Of a DNA stretch of 37,988 nt, positions 17,344 to 28,339 are shown piece by piece; the first letter of the stretch is position 1; every line of letters starts with the position of its first letter. Location of the stretch: positions 1 through 37,988 of the forward strand of contig JAPLDU010000026.1 of assembly GCA_026391255.1 (NCBI GenBank). The letters run 5' to 3'. The notes under the pieces are model-generated. The model was not told the origin of the DNA and ran no database searches. It saw only the letters and a list, made by a program, of their open reading frames with translations. The translations under genes and the position numbers were made by a program. The DNA is from Bacteroidia bacterium. GTDB taxonomy: Bacteria; Bacteroidota; Bacteroidia; Bacteroidales; JAPLDU01.

Positions 17344-19980
17344 TCATTGTAAATTATCAAACCAGCTTTTTTGTTTCTGGTACTTCAGATCTTTTAAAAC
17401 GGAGGCTTTTACATTAATTGAAAAACTGTACATCTGGTGAGCGCCAAATGGCACCCAGTTGAACTTCATTTCCCAGCAATGTAAGTCACGATAAATATCC
17501 ACCGTAGTATAAGTCATTTTTTTGCTGTCGAAATCATAACCCGAAGAAAATCCGATCTTCCATTTGGGAGTGAGGTTGACATCACCTGAAAATCGCATAG
17601 TCTGAGTCACCTTGGAGACATAAGCCGGTTTTGTATAATTCCAGGAATAATCTACCCGGATTGACCATGGAATATTTATATCAAAATAATCAGGATTATA
17701 ATCATTATTAGCAGATTGCGGAATATTTTGGTTTGATTGGCCGGTTGTACCGGTCTGGTTTTGCTTATCATTGCTCTTTTTCTTTTCCGGCGCTTTCATT
17801 GAAAAACCCAGTGACAGATTTGCATCAGTCAACCTTCCGAAGCTTCTGTTTTTATCATACTCAAATTGATTGATCCTCCTGCCGGCACTATCAATGGCAT
17901 AAGGATCAAGAGTACCGCCAAATGTGATGTTCAGGTTTTTAAATAAAGTGGTTCGTCCGTTAATAGTTACCGGCGACCAGTTCATTGAATCTTTAAAAAC
18001 ATCATAAGATGTTGATATCGAAAAACTTTCAAGTATCTTTATTTTCTTTTCCTCATTTACTGTGTCATTGGGTGTCTTTACCTTCATTTCAAGGTTATTC
18101 CCCAGGTTTAAAGAAACAATTCCGTATTTTTTTGCTGAAATAGGGCCACCATAAATGCCCTGATCAAAAATGGAATATTTCTGTGTATTTCCCAAGGTAT
18201 CTGACTGAACAGTCTTATAATAAGCGGGATTATCTCTTCCCATACCTGGTTTAAAAGCGAAACTTATTGTCGGATTAAAAACATGCCTGATAGCTTTGAT
18301 CTTCGAATTTCTGAACAAATACATACCATAAAAAGTCGGGCTGATGCTCAGGTTTAGTGTAGGTGTAACTTGCTGAGCGTATATCAATGAATGAACTGTA
18401 TTAGTTACCACGCCTCTTGAAATAGTGTCAGTTCCACTGATATGTGTCTGACCATACCACGTTTTATTTATATGACTGGAGTACAACCAGCCGGTGTAAT
18501 CTACTTTTGGTGTAAGTGTAATAAATTTTAAAAGTTTAAAATTTGCACTTACCGGTATATCATGCTGAAATCCATTATTGAAATCTTTTATTGTTGTTTT
18601 CTTGAACAGAAGCGAGTCGTATGTACTGAGCCTGTTATCGAGTTTAGAACTATATGATACCTCAATATTCTCGTACCATTTAAAATCGGAAGTCTTTCCT
18701 TTGGTGCGGAACGGATATTGCCTGTTCATATTAAAAGTGAGCGAAGGTAAAGTAAAATCGATGGTTTTGTCAAGGCTATTCTGGGTGTGACGCAGATTGG
18801 CGGAAAAATTGAAAATATCTCCCCAGTGTTTACTGAAAGAAATACTCGATGATTTGGTATTGCTTAAGTAAGAACCTGAGTTATAGGTATTGTTATGATC
18901 AAAAGCAGTGGAACTGATATTTACATTAGCCGAAAAGGTACGGGTAGGATTTGCCTTTGAATCCTGTATATGCGACCACATCAATGAAAAATCTTTAGAA
19001 GTGGAATAACCTCGTAAGCCCTTTTCACCAAAAATATTACTGTAATATTGTGCATCAAGGTAACCGTTAAATACATATCTGTCTTTATAATTTGAATGCA
19101 TCTTCAAACCCCAGGTGCCTTTTGAATAAATGTCAGCTCTGGTTTGTAAATCAGCATAATCACTCAATGCAAAATAATATCCGCCATTACGAAGAAAAAA
19201 ACCCCTGTTGGTTTCTTCTCCGTATTCCGGGATCAGAATACCCGATGAGTTTTCCCTTTTATTAGGGAAAAAGCCAAACGGAATACCAATCGGAGTCGGA
19301 ACATCAGCAATGACAAGATATGCCGGACCTGAAATTATCTTGTCTTTGGGAATTACTTTTGCTTTGGTGAGTGCTATATAGTAATGCGGATTTTCAAGGT
19401 CGCAGGTAGTATATTTACCATTCCTGATATTTACAATATCCGTGGATTCCTTTTTGGTCACTTCACTGTGAAGAAATCCCTGTTGCTGCTTGGTAAAACC
19501 ATTAATTATATACGCTTTCTTTGTCTTGAAATTGTAATACATTTCCGATGCATCAACAACATCATCACCTTCCTTGTAATGAGGTTTCCCACTGATTTTA
19601 CCTGTAGAATCGGGTCCTCCCCTTGCATATAATTTATTGTTGCCAAGATCAATCTCTATATAATTGGCTTTAAGTTCAATATTTTTATAGTTGATTTGTG
19701 CATCTCCGTATAGATACATCATCTTACTGTTAACCATAAAAATAATGGAGTCTTTTGCTTTATAATCTATGGGTGAATCAACCGTATCGGTTTTAGGTTT
19801 ATCCTTTGCCCGTGAGGCAAGCGAATCGTTTACAGCTTTCATCCTGCTGTTAAAACGATCTGTTGATCCGGTTCCCTGAAGAGCTTTGTTATCAGGTTCT
19901 GAAACCTGACCATACCCGGCAGAAATCAGCACAGGAAACCAGATAAATATCGCAACTATTTGAATTAATTTGGAATACAA
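17344..19980 (-). CDS. lptD: LPS-assembly outer-membrane protein LptD (Bacteroidota type)
   Basis: 878 residues with a signal peptide (about 1-24, ending SAGYGQ). An N-terminal OstA/LptA-like beta-jellyroll (about 75-200: MYLYGDAQINYKNIELKANY, MYYNFKTKKAYIINGF) precedes a long region rich in alternating hydrophobic/polar strands typical of a 26-strand barrel. PTPIGIPFGFFPNKRENSSGILIP (about 235-258) is the signature segment linking jellyroll and barrel in this family. LptD inserts LPS into the outer leaflet with LptE. It is divergent from the amidase gene (132-bp gap) and coupled to fmt downstream. A Gln/Asn-rich stretch near residue 745 is a likely loop. Confidence 0.9.
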   Translation of the reverse strand: MYSKLIQIVAIFIWFPVLISAGYGQVSEPDNKALQGTGSTDRFNSRMKAVNDSLASRAKDKPKTDTVDSPIDYKAKDSIIFMVNSKMMYLYGDAQINYKNIELKANYIEIDLGNNKLYARGGPDSTGKISGKPHYKEGDDVVDASEMYYNFKTKKAYIINGFTKQQQGFLHSEVTKKESTDIVNIRNGKYTTCDLENPHYYIALTKAKVIPKDKIISGPAYLVIADVPTPIGIPFGFFPNKRENSSGILIPEYGEETNRGFFLRNGGYYFALSDYADLQTRADIYSKGTWGLKMHSNYKDRYVFNGYLDAQYYSNIFGEKGLRGYSTSKDFSLMWSHIQDSKANPTRTFSANVNISSTAFDHNNTYNSGSYLSNTKSSSISFSKHWGDIFNFSANLRHTQNSLDKTIDFTLPSLTFNMNRQYPFRTKGKTSDFKWYENIEVSYSSKLDNRLSTYDSLLFKKTTIKDFNNGFQHDIPVSANFKLLKFITLTPKVDYTGWLYSSHINKTWYGQTHISGTDTISRGVVTNTVHSLIYAQQVTPTLNLSISPTFYGMYLFRNSKIKAIRHVFNPTISFAFKPGMGRDNPAYYKTVQSDTLGNTQKYSIFDQGIYGGPISAKKYGIVSLNLGNNLEMKVKTPNDTVNEEKKIKILESFSISTSYDVFKDSMNWSPVTINGRTTLFKNLNITFGGTLDPYAIDSAGRRINQFEYDKNRSFGRLTDANLSLGFSMKAPEKKKSNDKQNQTGTTGQSNQNIPQSANNDYNPDYFDINIPWSIRVDYSWNYTKPAYVSKVTQTMRFSGDVNLTPKWKIGFSSGYDFDSKKMTYTTVDIYRDLHCWEMKFNWVPFGAHQMYSFSINVKASVLKDLKYQKQKSWFDNLQ

Positions 19981-20112: not shown

Positions 20113-21381
20113 ATGTCGGAAAAGCAATTAATAATTCGCCTCATGACAATATCCAGGTTATTTACTGATAATCATTACCGAACAACAAACAAACGGATCA
20201 AATTATTATTTCTTGTTGTTTTCTTTTTTATCCTTATTATTCCTGGTATTTATTCACTAAATAGTGATAAGTTCGTTGTGGTAATTGATGCCGGTCATGG
20301 TGGGCATGATCCCGGAACAAGAGGCCAGCTTGCCCAGGAAAAAAATATCACCTTAGCCATTGCCCTGAAAATTCAAAAGTTAATCATTAATAATCAGCCT
20401 GATACAAAAGTTATTCTGACACGAAGTACCGATGTTTTTATTCCCTTATATGAAAGAGCGGGAATTGCCAATAAAAATAATGCTGATCTTTTCATTTCCA
20501 TTCATGTAGATGGGATTAAAAATCATTCTATTACCGGAACCTCCTCCTTTGTGATGGGATTACATAAGACCGATGAAAACTTTGAAGTCGCAAAACGTGA
20601 GAACTCCGTTATATCCATTGAGGATAATCATACTACACAATATGAGAACTTTGATCCTAATTCCGCTGAATCATATATCATTTTTAGCCTGATCCAAAAT
20701 AAGTACCTCGAACAAAGCCTTTCATTGGCTACAAAAATCCAGAATCAATTCAGAAACAGTTACAGCCGGGTTGATCGTGGAGTAAAACAAGCCGGATTCC
20801 TGGTACTGTGGAAAACAACGATGCCAAGCGTTCTGGTGGAGACAGGCTTCCTTACGAATCCTGACGAGGAAAAATACCTGATGTCGGAAGCAGGCCAGGA
20901 ATTTATAGCAGAATCAGTATATAAAGCTTTTGTTGATTACAAAAACGAGATTCAGAGTAAAACTATTATCAATCATATGGTTGATAAACCCAAAAGTGAT
21001 ACTTTTGTTGAAATTAAAAAACCGGGTTCTCAAAAAATTGCAGAGGTTAAGAGAGACTCAATTAAACAAGAAACTTCAAATATCAGTAAAACATTACCTC
21101 TGCCTGAAGAGAAGAAAATTAATAGCAATTTGGTATGCTATAAAGTTCAAATTGCTTCATCACCAAAAAAATTAGGTACAGATCCAAAACTGTTTAAGGG
21201 AATAAAGAATGTTGAAGAAAATTATTATGATGGTAGCTATAAGTACACCATAGGTAATGAAACCAATTATGATAAGATCAATATATTGCTTAAAACTACC
21301 CGAAGGACTATTCCCGATGCTTTTGTTATTGCAATAAAAAATGGGCAGAAAATCCCATTGAAGGAAGCCCGTAAACAATAA
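20113..21381 (+). CDS. N-acetylmuramoyl-L-alanine amidase (Amidase_3) with SPOR-like C-terminal domain
   Basis: 422 residues. A hydrophobic segment (about 29-47) acts as signal or anchor. The catalytic domain carries the zinc ligands and acid in the usual places: DAGHGGHDPGTRG (His62), Glu76 in the QEKNI segment, FISIHVDG (His131) and VLVETGFLTN (Glu243). It cleaves the amide between MurNAc and the stem peptide. After a linker rich in Lys/Ser (about 272-338), residues about 339-416 form a small SPOR-like domain (YKVQIASS...PDAFVIAIKNGQKIPL). The next gene ends in a clearly related domain. The start is ATG at 20113; an alternative ATG at 20143 is possible. Confidence 0.93.
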   Translation: MSEKQLIIRLMTISRLFTDNHYRTTNKRIKLLFLVVFFFILIIPGIYSLNSDKFVVVIDAGHGGHDPGTRGQLAQEKNITLAIALKIQKLIINNQPDTKVILTRSTDVFIPLYERAGIANKNNADLFISIHVDGIKNHSITGTSSFVMGLHKTDENFEVAKRENSVISIEDNHTTQYENFDPNSAESYIIFSLIQNKYLEQSLSLATKIQNQFRNSYSRVDRGVKQAGFLVLWKTTMPSVLVETGFLTNPDEEKYLMSEAGQEFIAESVYKAFVDYKNEIQSKTIINHMVDKPKSDTFVEIKKPGSQKIAEVKRDSIKQETSNISKTLPLPEEKKINSNLVCYKVQIASSPKKLGTDPKLFKGIKNVEENYYDGSYKYTIGNETNYDKINILLKTTRRTIPDAFVIAIKNGQKIPLKEARKQ

Positions 21382-21418
21382 AAATAAGGTGTAACTTTAC
21401 ACTGAAAAATATCAGATT

Positions 21419-22666
21419 TTGAAAATAAAAAAAGAAATAATTATTGGTTTAGTTGTTATCGCCTCACTTTGTTTATTGGTTGTGGGATTTAATTTTCTGA
21501 AGGGAAGACTCATTTTTCAGAACAATCGTATTTATTATGCCGTATACAATAAAATAGGAGGATTGATTACTTCCAGTCCTGTCCTGATCAACGGCTTCAA
21601 AATTGGACAAGTTAATGATATTCATTTTCATCCTGATAAATCCGGAAGGTTGGTAGTTGCGCTGCTTTTGAACTCCGATATACAAATTCCGGAAAATTCA
21701 ATCGCTAAAATATACAGCCTTGACCTTATGGGAACAAAAGGCATTGAGATTACCTTTTCCGACTTACACGGCTATCTGCATCCCGGTGATACTCTTAAGA
21801 CATCTATTGAAAGAGAACTGAAAGAAGAAGTAAATGCCCAGATGATTCCTTTAAAGAATAAAGCCGAAGAACTAATGAGTACTTTTGATTCTCTTCTTAC
21901 AGCTTTCAATAGTGTATTTACTGACAGTGTAAGAGAAAATCTTAAAAAATCGTTCTTTAGTATTCGTCAGGCTGTTCAAAACATCAGCCAGACAACCGGA
22001 GCAGTCAATAGTCTTGTTATAGGCCAAAGCAGCAGGATAGCCGATATTTTCACACAAATACACAATATAACTGAAGCTATTAGTAATAGCAGTAAAGACA
22101 TATCAAAAATAATAAGTAACTTTTCTTCCATAAGCGATTCACTGACTAAAATCAATTTTACCACTGTAATAAGGAATACAAACAGTACACTTATTTCCCT
22201 GAACGAAGTCATTTCGAGGATTAACAGGGGCGAAGGTACCATTGGCCTGCTTGCTAAAGACGATCAGTTATATCACAACCTACAGAATTCGTCGGCAGAA
22301 CTTTACAAGTTACTGCAGGACATCAGGGAAAACCCCAAAAAGTATCTTCATTTTTCACTGATCAGTTTTGGAAAAGATAAAAAACAGAAAGATATTTCAG
22401 CTAATCAGTCTGACGCTAAACTTCAGCACGATTCTTTCTACTCAATTCAGATTATGTCAGGTAAGACATTTATTCCTTCCGATTCTCCTGTTTTTACAGG
22501 ATTAGACAGTGTTTTTGTTTTTAACAATAACGGTTATTTCAAGTACCTCACGGGATATACACATAACATAGACAGCATTTATTCTATTAAATCAAGGATT
22601 AAGTTGCTTTTCCCTGATGCTTTTATTGTATCTTTCAAAGAAGGCAAACAAGTTCCTTTATTCTGA
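21419..22666 (+). CDS. MCE/MlaD-domain lipid-transport protein with SPOR-like C-terminal domain
   Basis: 415 residues from a TTG start at 21419; no in-frame ATG or GTG exists between the upstream stop at 21392 and this codon. An N-terminal transmembrane helix (about 5-25) precedes one MCE domain (about 36-115: YYAVYNKIGGLITSSPVLINGFKIGQV, LMGTKGIEITFS). A long helical region (about 130-320) with coiled-coil character follows. MCE proteins of this type bind lipids between membranes as part of Mla-like transport. Unexpectedly, residues about 337-415 (FYSIQIMSG...PDAFIVSFKEGKQVPLF) match the C-terminal domain of the amidase encoded just upstream. No ABC partner genes are in the window. Confidence 0.88.
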   Translation: MKIKKEIIIGLVVIASLCLLVVGFNFLKGRLIFQNNRIYYAVYNKIGGLITSSPVLINGFKIGQVNDIHFHPDKSGRLVVALLLNSDIQIPENSIAKIYSLDLMGTKGIEITFSDLHGYLHPGDTLKTSIERELKEEVNAQMIPLKNKAEELMSTFDSLLTAFNSVFTDSVRENLKKSFFSIRQAVQNISQTTGAVNSLVIGQSSRIADIFTQIHNITEAISNSSKDISKIISNFSSISDSLTKINFTTVIRNTNSTLISLNEVISRINRGEGTIGLLAKDDQLYHNLQNSSAELYKLLQDIRENPKKYLHFSLISFGKDKKQKDISANQSDAKLQHDSFYSIQIMSGKTFIPSDSPVFTGLDSVFVFNNNGYFKYLTGYTHNIDSIYSIKSRIKLLFPDAFIVSFKEGKQVPLF

Positions 22667-23215: not shown

Positions 23216-26200
23216 TTATTTTGTAACAGTCATACTTTTAATTCCGGTAAATTCATCCGTAATCAGTTTATAATAATATACTCCTGATGCAAGGTTTTCA
23301 TTGACAGAAACCTTATGCAGACCGGCTTTCATATCATTGGAAATCACTGTGGATATTTGTTCACCGGCAACATTATAAATAATCAGATCAACATGAGAAT
23401 CCTTTGGAAGGTTAAAACTGATTTCAGTCACATCCCTGAAAGGATTAGGAGTATTCTGGTACAATTCAGACATAACACTCTGGTTAGAGTAGGTAGCCAG
23501 TTTACCAACCACACTGATTGCATCGGTAGTGAAATATTGGTTACCTTCAGTCCAGCTGATAACATTAACATTTTCTTCAGTATTGGTTGACTGACGCCAT
23601 ATTTTAATAGTATAAACACTGCCATTCGGACATCCTTCATTATCCTGTGTAATAGCATCATCACCAAATATTGCAATAGCCATATTAGATGAAGTAAATG
23701 TACCAGATCCGACCAGGGTATTACCGGAAAACACACCAATTTCATCGCCAATCTCAGGTAATTTATCCCAGGCATTCAATGGAATACACAGAGTCATATC
23801 ATTGCCGGTATTAAAGTTGCTGATAAAATGAATATGTGTTTCTTCCCAGGGCGCATTTTTATCGATCTGGTCAGGAGTATTTGCTAAATAATATAAAGTA
23901 CAGGCTGTACTTACTTTAATTTTATATCCTTTACCAGGATTCATAGTAACTATCTGATTGATTCCGTAAAATGGCCACCAAACTTTCCCATCTTCGTCTT
24001 TAACAATAACAACATTTGAATAAATCCCTGCCAGTTCAGTAGTAATAGCGTCCGGATTCCTCCTGAGATATCCAATAAAATTATAACCTGCAGTCAGGCT
24101 GATAGGTGTCGACTGGGCATGTACGGCACTTCCGGTAAGATTAAGTACAGCCGGGCCACTCATTTTATACTGATATCCCTGACCAACATGCAAATTACCA
24201 ATCTGATTAATAGGTGTCGGTATCGCCCACCAGAATACATTGCCTAATTGATCTTTAACTATGATCAGGTTAGCAATAACATCAGCATCAGCAGTCATGA
24301 TCGTTTGAATATTACCAGTAATATTCAGATATGTAGAGAACATTCCCCAACCGGTTCTCATTGGGATATCCTGATTTTCAGTATTAGTAACGACAACAGC
24401 ATCACTGGCTGAGCAACCGTGAAGCGTAACTGTAACAGAATAAGTCCCCACATCAGGTGTATTATAAGTCTGAGTTGTAGCGCCTGAAGACCATAAATAA
24501 GCATCATAACCAGCGCCGGCATCAAGTATCAGTGTTTCAGGAAATAATGTATTAATAGTATTTAAAAATGGATTATATGCAGTAAGATCAGTTACGAATG
24601 TGTAGTTAGTAGTTGAATTAACACAGCCATGAACATCAGTGTATGTATAAGTAACAGCATATGGTAATACATTGGCAGTGGAAGGGTTAAAACTGGCTGT
24701 TCCATTATGGTGATCCGTTAACATACCAGCAACAACCGGAGAAATACTGTAAGAACCGCTTGCACCAGAAGGGTTACCTGTCAAATTCTGAACAGAACTG
24801 TTAAGACAAACTCCGGAGGCTAATCCTGAGAAGGTAGGTGTAGGTAAGAACCAGGTATGAATGGTATCGGTACGTGTATCATTTCCGTGAGCTACGTCAT
24901 AAGCATAACTAACATTACTGGTGAAAATATAAGTTCCTGCAGCAGCCAGATTGGCTGTTGTGGCAAATGTATGATTAATGGAAGAGCTAACATTGAAATC
25001 TGCAGCAAGAGTAATGGTTTCAGTAATCACAGGACCTGCATTTACAGAATATGAAACATTGATTGGAGTACCCATTGAAATTACATCACCTGAAACATTG
25101 GTAATAGTAATATTAACAGGCTCATTTGCTGAATGGTATCCTAAACAGGCTTCTACAGGAGTGACTAAAGCTGTAACTCCAAGGTCGCTTGCATTCACTC
25201 TCTTCAGCATTACATCATCAAGCATCATATATTGTGCATCAATCGTCAAATTTCCGGTTGCTTTAAATCCAAAATAGTAAGTTCCTGTTGCCGGAGCCAC
25301 AAATTTCTGCATTGCGTATGCATAGTTTCCATTAGTAACCACATTATTGAGGTTAACAAGTAAAGTGTTCATTGAAGCAGCATTCTGACCGGTGCCATAA
25401 TAAACATCCATATTCTTGGCGGTTGCCCAAGCCGGCCAGGTAGCATACCAGAAATTCATTTCATAAGTCTGACCTACCGTCAAATTGAAACATTTTGTAA
25501 ACAACCAGTCGTTACCGCTTCCAAAAGCATATGCATAAGCATAGGCACTAATTCCGGTATGTGAATGACCGGCATCCCATAACCATGAATTACCGTCATT
25601 ATTGGCATTCTGTATCAACCAGTTTCCTGTGGAAGTAACTTCAGTTTCAAAACTGGTAAAATAAACAGAACTGAGGTTATCATAAATATTATTAACAACA
25701 TAGCCATTATAATAATCATTTGTTGCATCACCGTCACCTGTCAAAACTACCCATGCGTTGATTGTTCCACCAGCAGTAAAATCTTCTGTATTGTTAAACT
25801 GAATATTGACAGTAGTCATTGATCCGATAGCCGGAGTAGTATACAATTTGGACATAATGGGCCCTGAATTCTTTTGATAGTAAACCCAAAAGTTGGAAAT
25901 AGGAGATGTTCCCCAGTTTTTAACCTGAACTGTAACATGATCACTTGCAGTAAGATCACAACTAGTAACAGGAGCAACAATTTTCTCAAGTGAGGCATCT
26001 AATGGAAGTTTCTGGCGTAATATCAGGTTATCGATGTACGAAATATTTCCGGAGTACGCATTTGAAGCCTGGAGTGCAAGTTCGAAAGTAGTTCCGGCAT
26101 AAGCACTCAGATCATATCTCAGATTTTTCCAAACCGGAAGACCATAGGGTGATGGAATAAAATCTGTAACACCATTAATATCACTGATAGCAACTCCATT

Positions 26201-28339
26201 TACCAGTACATGGAACCATGTATACCCGGGCCCATCCACATATTCCTGCTTCAGACTGAATAACATTTCAAGGCTTGAAAGGCCTGTAGCATCCACCAGA
26301 CAGGTAGTGGCTGAAGCAATATGGCTTGCATTATCAGTCCAGGCTTGTGATGAAGTTGTACCGGTGGATGATGACCCGCCAATCCATGTTGAACCATCTA
26401 AACCTTTCATAACAAGAGCACCACCTGCAACTACTGTTGGTGAAGCAGCAGTACCATTACTCAATCCCAAATTGGCAGGAGTTCCGCTAAAGTTTTCAGT
26501 ATAGGGGAAAGAATTAATAGGACTTACACCTGTATTAGTCAGTGTAAATGTCTGTGTATTATTACTTAATGTGTAATTATGGCTGAGAACAATTGTATAA
26601 GGCCCGGCTGATAAATTAGCAAGCGTTGCAAAAGTATGGTTAAATGTAGCAGCGGGCATCAGGTTACCTACAGTTACTAACTCAGTAACAGGCGGGTTAG
26701 CGTCTATTGCATAACTCACATTAAATGTTCCTGTAATAGAACTGGTACCAGTATTTTCAAGTTGGATGGTGACCGGTTCTGCATTGTTCAGATTGCAACC
26801 TCCTAATACCGGAGTTAACCAGGTAATGCTCATACCGACAGGATTGGAACAGTTGTATATATTCACATTATCAAAAGCAAATCCCTGGTGGTCATTATTA
26901 TTAGCATCAGAACCAAATACAAAACGTAATTTAACATTCGGCATTCCACCGGTTCCATTGAGCAAATAATTTGCTGAAACCCAACCTATGGTGCTGTTCC
27001 AGCAATTTGTAGAACCAGTCCAGCTTAATCCCGAGGCCGATCCGTTATACCAGTTTCCCGGATCACCAATCGAACCTAATGTAGTCCAGGAAATGCCGCC
27101 ATTAGTTGAATATTGTAAAGCAGCTCCATCAAAATTAGTTTCGGCATCAGCCCAAATATCAAAAGTAATTTCCGGACAAGCAACAGTAGTAAAGTCGAAA
27201 CATGGACTTTCCACCCAGGATTGTTCACTATTGTTATACCATCCATTCAGGTTGGTCTTATAAAATCCATCACCTGCAGATTTATAAGCAGGTAAATAAA
27301 CGTATGGTGGAACTCCTACGTCCCAGCTTGAATTTGAACCACCGGCCAACCATGAGCCATTTCCGCTGTCAAAATCCTGCAAATAAGGAAAGGTATTTAC
27401 GACACCATATGAATATACAGTCAGGTAAGAAGTATTATTAGTATTGTTTGCATCGCCTGTAATATTGGTCCAGGCAACAATATTATATGCCTTATGTATG
27501 CTAAAGTTCTCAGCTATGGGAAAAGTATAAGAATATGTACTACCGGCAGGAAGACCAACAGTAAGGTTCACTGAGTGAACTGGACCACCATCAATGGTAT
27601 ATTTAACATCAAATATTCCAACCGGATTAGTACCATAATTTTTCACAAGAACCTGAACATGTTCATTCGATCCCAGTCCGCAACCTGAAACAGGAGCTGT
27701 AATTGCCATAACACCAAGATCAGTAACCGTTCCCGGTTTTTCATGAATGATCAGGTTATCTATCAAAGCGGCATCTCCAAATCCGGGGACGCTGGCATCG
27801 TTATATTTACAACTTGATTCCAGTGTAATGGTAAATGTTGTGCCGGCATAAGCGCCTAAATCAAAATATTTTGTTTGAAAAGGGTCACTTTCCTGTGTAC
27901 CGGGATTAAAATTAATTACTGAATTTTCATCGGCTACAGGAGTACCGTTTATCAGCACCCTAAACCAGCTGTAAAGCGGTGAATAGCTATAGGTTTGTTG
28001 CAAATCCAGAACTAATTCAGGATGAGTCATCACACCAGCATTAACAGTGCAAGATACTGCTGAAGCCTGATGTAAAGTATTATCAACCCATGCATTGGTA
28101 GATGTAGTAGTTGAAATTCCGCCAGTCCAGCCTGAAGCACCGCCTCCGGTCAGTATTAATTCCTGGTTTGCATAATAAGCTGACGACTGTGAGGATGAAT
28201 TCAGAGTGAAATAAACACTGCCATTGGTGTTAAAATTCTCTGTTACCGGTGGTATGATCGGGCACTGAGCTGTTACATACAATCCTGATAACAAGACTAA
28301 TAAACTTATCACTAAAACTTTTTGTATCAAGTTTCTCAT
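23216..28339 (-). CDS. Very large secreted surface protein with T9SS type A sorting domain
   Basis: 1707 residues with signal peptide (about 1-24, ending VTAQ). Four beta-jellyroll (MAM-like) domains alternate with four CARDB/Ig-like domains: jellyrolls at about 34-200, 315-497, 611-776 and 891-1047; CARDB-like at about 206-308, 503-601, 781-883 and 1051-1162. The first and third jellyrolls are clear duplicates (LGAYAGTTFTITLES / LSAYAGTTFELALQA). Ig/PKD-like segments follow (1165-1320), then two copies of a Trp-rich unit (1326-1412 and 1413-1488) sharing IVKD-x-x-G-x-V-(F/W)WW and G-(Q/K)-GY-x-(Y/I)-K, a further domain (about 1500-1612), and a type A sorting domain (1625-1707: YQNTPNPFRDVTEISFNLP, LASGVYYYKL). 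It is probably anchored at the surface as an adhesin; no enzyme domain is visible. Confidence 0.92.
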   Translation of the reverse strand: MRNLIQKVLVISLLVLLSGLYVTAQCPIIPPVTENFNTNGSVYFTLNSSSQSSAYYANQELILTGGGASGWTGGISTTTSTNAWVDNTLHQASAVSCTVNAGVMTHPELVLDLQQTYSYSPLYSWFRVLINGTPVADENSVINFNPGTQESDPFQTKYFDLGAYAGTTFTITLESSCKYNDASVPGFGDAALIDNLIIHEKPGTVTDLGVMAITAPVSGCGLGSNEHVQVLVKNYGTNPVGIFDVKYTIDGGPVHSVNLTVGLPAGSTYSYTFPIAENFSIHKAYNIVAWTNITGDANNTNNTSYLTVYSYGVVNTFPYLQDFDSGNGSWLAGGSNSSWDVGVPPYVYLPAYKSAGDGFYKTNLNGWYNNSEQSWVESPCFDFTTVACPEITFDIWADAETNFDGAALQYSTNGGISWTTLGSIGDPGNWYNGSASGLSWTGSTNCWNSTIGWVSANYLLNGTGGMPNVKLRFVFGSDANNNDHQGFAFDNVNIYNCSNPVGMSITWLTPVLGGCNLNNAEPVTIQLENTGTSSITGTFNVSYAIDANPPVTELVTVGNLMPAATFNHTFATLANLSAGPYTIVLSHNYTLSNNTQTFTLTNTGVSPINSFPYTENFSGTPANLGLSNGTAASPTVVAGGALVMKGLDGSTWIGGSSSTGTTSSQAWTDNASHIASATTCLVDATGLSSLEMLFSLKQEYVDGPGYTWFHVLVNGVAISDINGVTDFIPSPYGLPVWKNLRYDLSAYAGTTFELALQASNAYSGNISYIDNLILRQKLPLDASLEKIVAPVTSCDLTASDHVTVQVKNWGTSPISNFWVYYQKNSGPIMSKLYTTPAIGSMTTVNIQFNNTEDFTAGGTINAWVVLTGDGDATNDYYNGYVVNNIYDNLSSVYFTSFETEVTSTGNWLIQNANNDGNSWLWDAGHSHTGISAYAYAYAFGSGNDWLFTKCFNLTVGQTYEMNFWYATWPAWATAKNMDVYYGTGQNAASMNTLLVNLNNVVTNGNYAYAMQKFVAPATGTYYFGFKATGNLTIDAQYMMLDDVMLKRVNASDLGVTALVTPVEACLGYHSANEPVNITITNVSGDVISMGTPINVSYSVNAGPVITETITLAADFNVSSSINHTFATTANLAAAGTYIFTSNVSYAYDVAHGNDTRTDTIHTWFLPTPTFSGLASGVCLNSSVQNLTGNPSGASGSYSISPVVAGMLTDHHNGTASFNPSTANVLPYAVTYTYTDVHGCVNSTTNYTFVTDLTAYNPFLNTINTLFPETLILDAGAGYDAYLWSSGATTQTYNTPDVGTYSVTVTLHGCSASDAVVVTNTENQDIPMRTGWGMFSTYLNITGNIQTIMTADADVIANLIIVKDQLGNVFWWAIPTPINQIGNLHVGQGYQYKMSGPAVLNLTGSAVHAQSTPISLTAGYNFIGYLRRNPDAITTELAGIYSNVVIVKDEDGKVWWPFYGINQIVTMNPGKGYKIKVSTACTLYYLANTPDQIDKNAPWEETHIHFISNFNTGNDMTLCIPLNAWDKLPEIGDEIGVFSGNTLVGSGTFTSSNMAIAIFGDDAITQDNEGCPNGSVYTIKIWRQSTNTEENVNVISWTEGNQYFTTDAISVVGKLATYSNQSVMSELYQNTPNPFRDVTEISFNLPKDSHVDLIIYNVAGEQISTVISNDMKAGLHKVSVNENLASGVYYYKLITDEFTGIKSMTVTK

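Follow-up and report, generated by a model that had tools for sequence, protein, structure and literature searches.

MCE proteins are described as inner-membrane components of lipid transport in a published survey of their architectures (PMC5561183), and in Veillonella parvula the MCE protein MlaD reaches the outer membrane by means of a helical region and a C-terminal beta-barrel (PMC10665443). One question that such proteins raise is how lipid delivery to the outer membrane is kept in step with remodelling of the wall and with constriction. The Bacteroidota are reported to be without the beta-barrel MlaD solution (PMC10665443). SPOR domains recognise glycan strands without stem peptides, which are the product of amidases (PMC6895207). 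RlpA Q270 (equivalent to FtsN Q251) is a highly conserved glycan contact and mutation of FtsN Q251, S254, W283, R285 and I313 lowered septal localisation, although S254A was tolerated (PMC6895207).

The window analysed here, a stretch of 37,988 nucleotides from a genome of the order Bacteroidales, contains an amidase gene followed directly by an MCE gene, and both encoded proteins end in a SPOR-like domain. The features of the locus are as follows:

17344..19980, minus strand: LptD-type LPS-assembly outer-membrane protein, divergent upstream of the amidase (PF19838 LptD_2, E 3.8e-159)
20113..21381, plus strand: N-acetylmuramoyl-L-alanine amidase, Amidase_3 (PF01520, E 1.9e-52, 178 bits, residues 56-272)
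21127..21378, plus strand: SPOR-like C-terminal domain of the amidase, with Gln at 21148-21150 and Lys (of YKY) at 21241-21243
21382..21418, plus strand: intergenic gap of 37 nt between amidase and MCE gene, from the ORF coordinates
21419..22666, plus strand: MCE/MlaD-type protein gene (PF02470, E 2.5e-12, residues 38-113; TIGR00996, E 9.7e-19)
about 21437-21499, plus strand: N-terminal membrane helix of the MCE protein, a hydrophobic segment read from the sequence
21530-21757, plus strand: MCE domain of the MCE protein
about 21806-22378, plus strand: long predicted helical region of the MCE protein, read from the sequence
22421..22663, plus strand: SPOR-like C-terminal domain of the MCE protein, with Gln at 22448-22450 and Lys (of FKY) at 22541-22543

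The catalytic domain of the amidase has the zinc-ligand motifs DAGHGG, QEKN, SIHVD and VETGF (by eye, with His, Glu, His and Glu as the respective ligands). In the arrangement of its catalytic and SPOR domains the protein agrees with Bacillus subtilis CwlC (Amidase_3 with C-terminal SPOR), but it differs in having a single SPOR-like domain (two in tandem in at least one relative, L122:2006-3310), a gram-negative host and an adjoining MCE gene. The MCE protein scored 47.3 bits against PF02470, for which the cut-off is 25.1, and it shares with type I MCE proteins such as E. coli MlaD an N-terminal membrane helix and a single MCE domain; its helical region is longer than in these, a SPOR-like domain is added at the C-terminus, and its gene lies beside an amidase gene and not beside mlaEF. 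The resemblance to Veillonella parvula MlaD (PMC10665443) consists in an inner-membrane MCE protein with an elongated helical region and an extra distal C-terminal domain, but this domain is of a peptidoglycan-binding type in the window protein and an outer-membrane barrel in Veillonella. The amidase and MCE genes are probably carried on one transcript, and their order and close spacing recur in many relatives. The start of the window MCE gene at 21419 is apparently a TTG codon (proposed), and several relatives have ATG at that place.

The first-pass annotation had claimed that the last ~78 residues of the two proteins are one small domain, and this was borne out, with a domain of ~80 residues in which 23/74 positions were identical (31%) in an ungapped pairwise alignment (45.8 bits, E 2e-13). 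Every motif it had listed was present in both tails (amidase/MCE: YKVQI/YSIQI, FKGIKNV/FTGLDSV, GSYKYTIG/GYFKYLTG, PDAFVI/PDAFIV, IPL/VPL). Small corrections to it are that the amidase tail extends 7 residues beyond its IPL motif and that the domains lie at 21127-21378 and 22421-22663. When the whole amidase was compared by tblastn with its own 4.08 Mb genome, it matched only its own gene and, at E 5.1e-6, the MCE tail. Profiles of 29 MCE tails and 27 amidase tails, aligned independently, matched with a probability of 99.9% (E 2.7e-37), and the MCE core, used as negative control, gave 0.2%. Given the pairwise, tblastn, motif and profile evidence and the low value of the control, the match between the tail sequences is far beyond chance. 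With a tail identity of only 31%, the idea that one window gene had recently been copied from, or converted by, the other was rejected; the best identity found for the window MCE tail was 38%, to an amidase tail of another genome.

Scanned in isolation with Pfam and NCBIfam, neither window tail had a SPOR match, and weak matches to other families (e.g. KRR1 KH and ribosomal protein S2) were put down to chance. At the level of the family the result was different: in an alignment of 53 tails taken from relatives, 27/53 members individually matched PF05036 SPOR at E<=1 (best 3.1e-7). Of ten MCE fusions, the highest-scoring one reached 16.7 bits against a PF05036 cut-off of 21, and certain other proteins carrying the domain exceed this cut-off. 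Comparison by hhalign with a set of classical SPOR domains (E. coli FtsN, DamX, DedD and RlpA together with three SPOR domains from the same genome as the window) gave 87.5% (E 3.6e-6) for the MCE tails and 93.2% (E 2.9e-7) for the amidase tails. When searched against PDB sequences, the 53-tail profile had the SPOR domain of CwlC (1X60) as its best match (E 0.02), but with a profile of MCE tails only 1X60 ranked fifth (E 0.092), and this search is therefore weak evidence by itself.

Each tail was also modelled confidently with AlphaFold2 (pLDDT 94.0 for the amidase and 92.2 for the MCE tail), and both models have the RNP-like fold of SPOR domains, with a four-stranded sheet and two helices. 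Comparing the models with the PDB by Foldseek placed 1X60 at the top for each, with modest E-values (amidase tail: E 1.5e-2, TM 0.56/0.60; MCE tail: E 1.4e-3, TM 0.66/0.69, prob 1.00), and the DedD SPOR domain was also among the matches (6ZTG, prob 0.97 with the MCE tail). The tails resemble classical SPOR domains (PF05036: CwlC, FtsN, DamX, DedD, RlpA) in predicted fold, in profile similarity and in the glutamine and basic positions of the glycan-binding face, and differ from them in the motifs FKG, YKY and PDAF and in lying below Pfam SPOR detection. Together, the PF05036 matches, the predicted folds and the profile comparisons indicate that both tails are members of one divergent Bacteroidia subfamily of SPOR domains. 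The SPOR-like fold assigned by the first-pass annotation is thus upheld by structure prediction, in which the models were compared through their PDB matches, and by family-level profiles; a profile search on the isolated window tails with Pfam SPOR does not recover it.

The positions corresponding to FtsN Q251, S254, W283 and R285 were located by profile alignment. They are occupied by Gln, Ser, Tyr and Lys in the window MCE tail and by Gln, Ser, Ser and Lys in the window amidase tail. The key glutamine is kept in 96% of the amidase tails and in 70% of the MCE tails, the remaining MCE tails (about 30%) having Cys, His, Leu or other residues instead, and because of this glycan binding may have been lost, or function changed, in several clades of MCE tails. 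One core tyrosine is invariant across the MCE tails, and the proline of the FPDAF signature is found in 94% of them as compared to 33% of the amidase tails.

Genomes were searched at three taxonomic levels (order, class and phylum). Among 60 genomes of the window's order, one per family, an MCE match was found in 54, mostly with an adjoining SPOR-tailed amidase, and just six full-length MCE proteins carried the tail. In the larger set of 393 genomes of the order, tailed MCE proteins, each confirmed with the tail profile, were found in at least 42 genomes from 14 families, a count that comes from searches and is a lower bound. Two cultured species are among the carriers, Balneicella halophila DSM 28579 and Breznakibacter xylanolyticus DSM 6779. 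The non-random sample of 121 unique adjoining amidase-MCE pairs contained 44 pairs with both tails, 72 with an amidase tail only, 5 with neither and 0 with an MCE tail only. Wherever the MCE protein of a full-length adjacent pair was tailed (44/44), the amidase was tailed as well, but this co-occurrence is statistically uninformative since 116/121 amidases were tailed anyway. The neighbour survey spoke against the double tail as a general feature of such pairs, as most carry the tail on the amidase alone, and since most MCE neighbours of SPOR-tailed amidases are without a tail, the MCE tail is not essential to the pathway.

In the class as a whole the amidase tail is widespread. The SPOR subfamily is common outside the order too, with matches to the MCE-tail profile in 198/295 genomes of the class, some of them from the window's order. 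In a follow-up of these matches, none of the 24 MCE genes adjoining tailed amidases, nearly all outside the order, had a tail. Phylum-wide, among 396 genomes, no MCE-SPOR match spanning the tail was found outside the window's own genome at E<=1e-90, a threshold at which distant fusions could be missed. Among the genomes searched, those with an MCE tail all belonged to the window's order. Apparent MCE tails in a genus outside the order (g65) were wrong, the second matches being tandem copies of the amidase. Three loci of one genus outside the order (L104, L105 and L106) have tandem duplicated SPOR-tailed amidases followed by a tail-less MCE gene.

Presence of the tail was clustered in a tree of 122 MCE cores: the 35 tailed proteins required 7 changes as compared to 30.6 in shuffles, and 33/35 of them fell within one group of 41 rows (support 89). 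A single clade of MCE tails was not rejected, either on the tail tree, which has 88 columns only, or on the core tree (p-AU 0.381 in both). One early fusion of the MCE tail in the order, followed by losses and divergence, is the likeliest history; the tail may have come from the neighbouring amidase or from a different SPOR protein. In one genome (G052, L009:1-660) a short MCE domain, truncated by the contig start, leads almost directly into a SPOR-like tail; the next gene downstream is a full-length MCE gene without a tail, and the amidase is on a different contig.

The genome is 97.5% complete. In it the window amidase was the sole Amidase_3 gene found, and no Amidase_2 gene was found. MlaE and MCE are each encoded by three genes. 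Two of the MlaE genes are each near an MCE gene, and the third, on contig C79, adjoins mlaF; no MCE gene lies alongside this pair in the 3.6 kb covered and no MCE match was found on that contig. Because no MCE gene lies beside it, this mlaEF pair could serve the window MCE protein and is a candidate partner for it. Of the 89 loci that gave a match, most had an LptD-like ORF next to the amidase and in the opposite orientation.

What was observed of the tails (their homology, fold family and conserved contact positions) and of the genes (their order and distribution) is compatible with a mechanism that we regard as rather probable, in which denuded glycan made by the amidase would hold both the amidase and an MCE lipid conduit at sites of wall remodelling. 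The amidase would remove stem peptides from the glycan strands and be retained on the denuded product by its own SPOR domain. The MCE protein, anchored in the inner membrane and presumably paired with mlaEF, would form a ring and helical conduit like other MCE proteins, putatively as a hexamer, and the SPOR domain at the distal end of this conduit would grip the denuded glycan left by the neighbouring amidase. In this way the conduit would be placed or braced where the wall opens, most likely at the division site if localisation is septal, and the supply of lipids to the outer membrane may then track wall remodelling. Shared targeting and a coupling of this kind had already been proposed in the first-pass annotation. 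An extended form of the mechanism, of which we are inclined to be doubtful, would make this a trans-periplasmic lipid conduit specific to Bacteroidales that is addressed or gated by the product of a neighbouring enzyme and couples lipid flow, perhaps including LPS assembly via LptD, to wall opening in constriction.

The MCE tail could instead be a static anchor that braces the distal conduit to peptidoglycan anywhere, replacing the barrel of Veillonella MlaD and having no link to division or to amidase sites. Its place at the far end of the conduit is that of the V. parvula MlaD beta-barrel, which is reported absent from Bacteroidetes (PMC10665443), and loss of the glutamine is tolerated in MCE tails; however, the specificity of SPOR domains for peptide-free glycan (PMC6895207) would make the MCE protein follow amidase activity, and the contact positions are retained in both window tails. 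We consider such an anchor unlikely. A slightly less likely alternative is that the MCE tail has been repurposed as a protein-protein or oligomerisation module that binds the amidase, LptD or other Lpt parts, or another MCE subunit, and not glycan. RNP-like folds frequently mediate protein contacts, and such a role would fit the loss of the glutamine in several clades where the core tyrosine stays invariant, but the window MCE tail retains Gln, Ser and Lys at contact positions, and the domain is also found on OmpA-type and lipoprotein-like proteins, which fits wall binding. Very improbable, finally, is an evolutionary by-product, in which the 3' end of the amidase gene was partly duplicated, fused to the neighbouring gene and kept with little function. 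The adjacency of the genes makes local duplication an easy source and the tail was probably lost or diverged in some lineages, but its retention across at least 14 families with the FPDAF signature and the invariant tyrosine argues against this, and at 31% identity the window tails are not a recent copy.

No description of an MCE-SPOR architecture was found in the literature searched, including the article text of the survey of MCE architectures (PMC5561183), and the one paper that mentions both MCE and SPOR lists them separately. The impression of the first-pass annotation that such proteins had not been described is consistent with this, and an earlier record as a rare architecture is still conceivable. 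The survey relied on Pfam cut-offs (PMC5561183), so most MCE tails would have been invisible to it, and the architecture is in general easily missed because Pfam SPOR detects neither window tail. With the natural MCE-SPOR fusion, a physical connection of lipid transport to peptidoglycan processed by an amidase can be put to the test in at least two cultured species, and the fusion also exposes a large Bacteroidia SPOR subfamily that is often overlooked by standard Pfam annotation.

Many further proteins of the class that are secreted or outer-membrane-like also end in a domain of this SPOR subfamily, of which a single genome can have up to 9 matches (loci L225, L236, L241, L243, L248-L250, L253, L229 and L245-L247). 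One lipoprotein-like family (L058:382-1983 and L064:737-2446) combines a conserved FYPFSGPD.LYANAFFP region with a tail of this subfamily, and Pfam recognises no family in its main body. Downstream of the MCE gene in the window, a secreted protein of 1707 residues is encoded on the minus strand (23216-28339), and its C-terminal end resembles a sorting domain of type IX secretion (PNPF...GVYYYKL...K).
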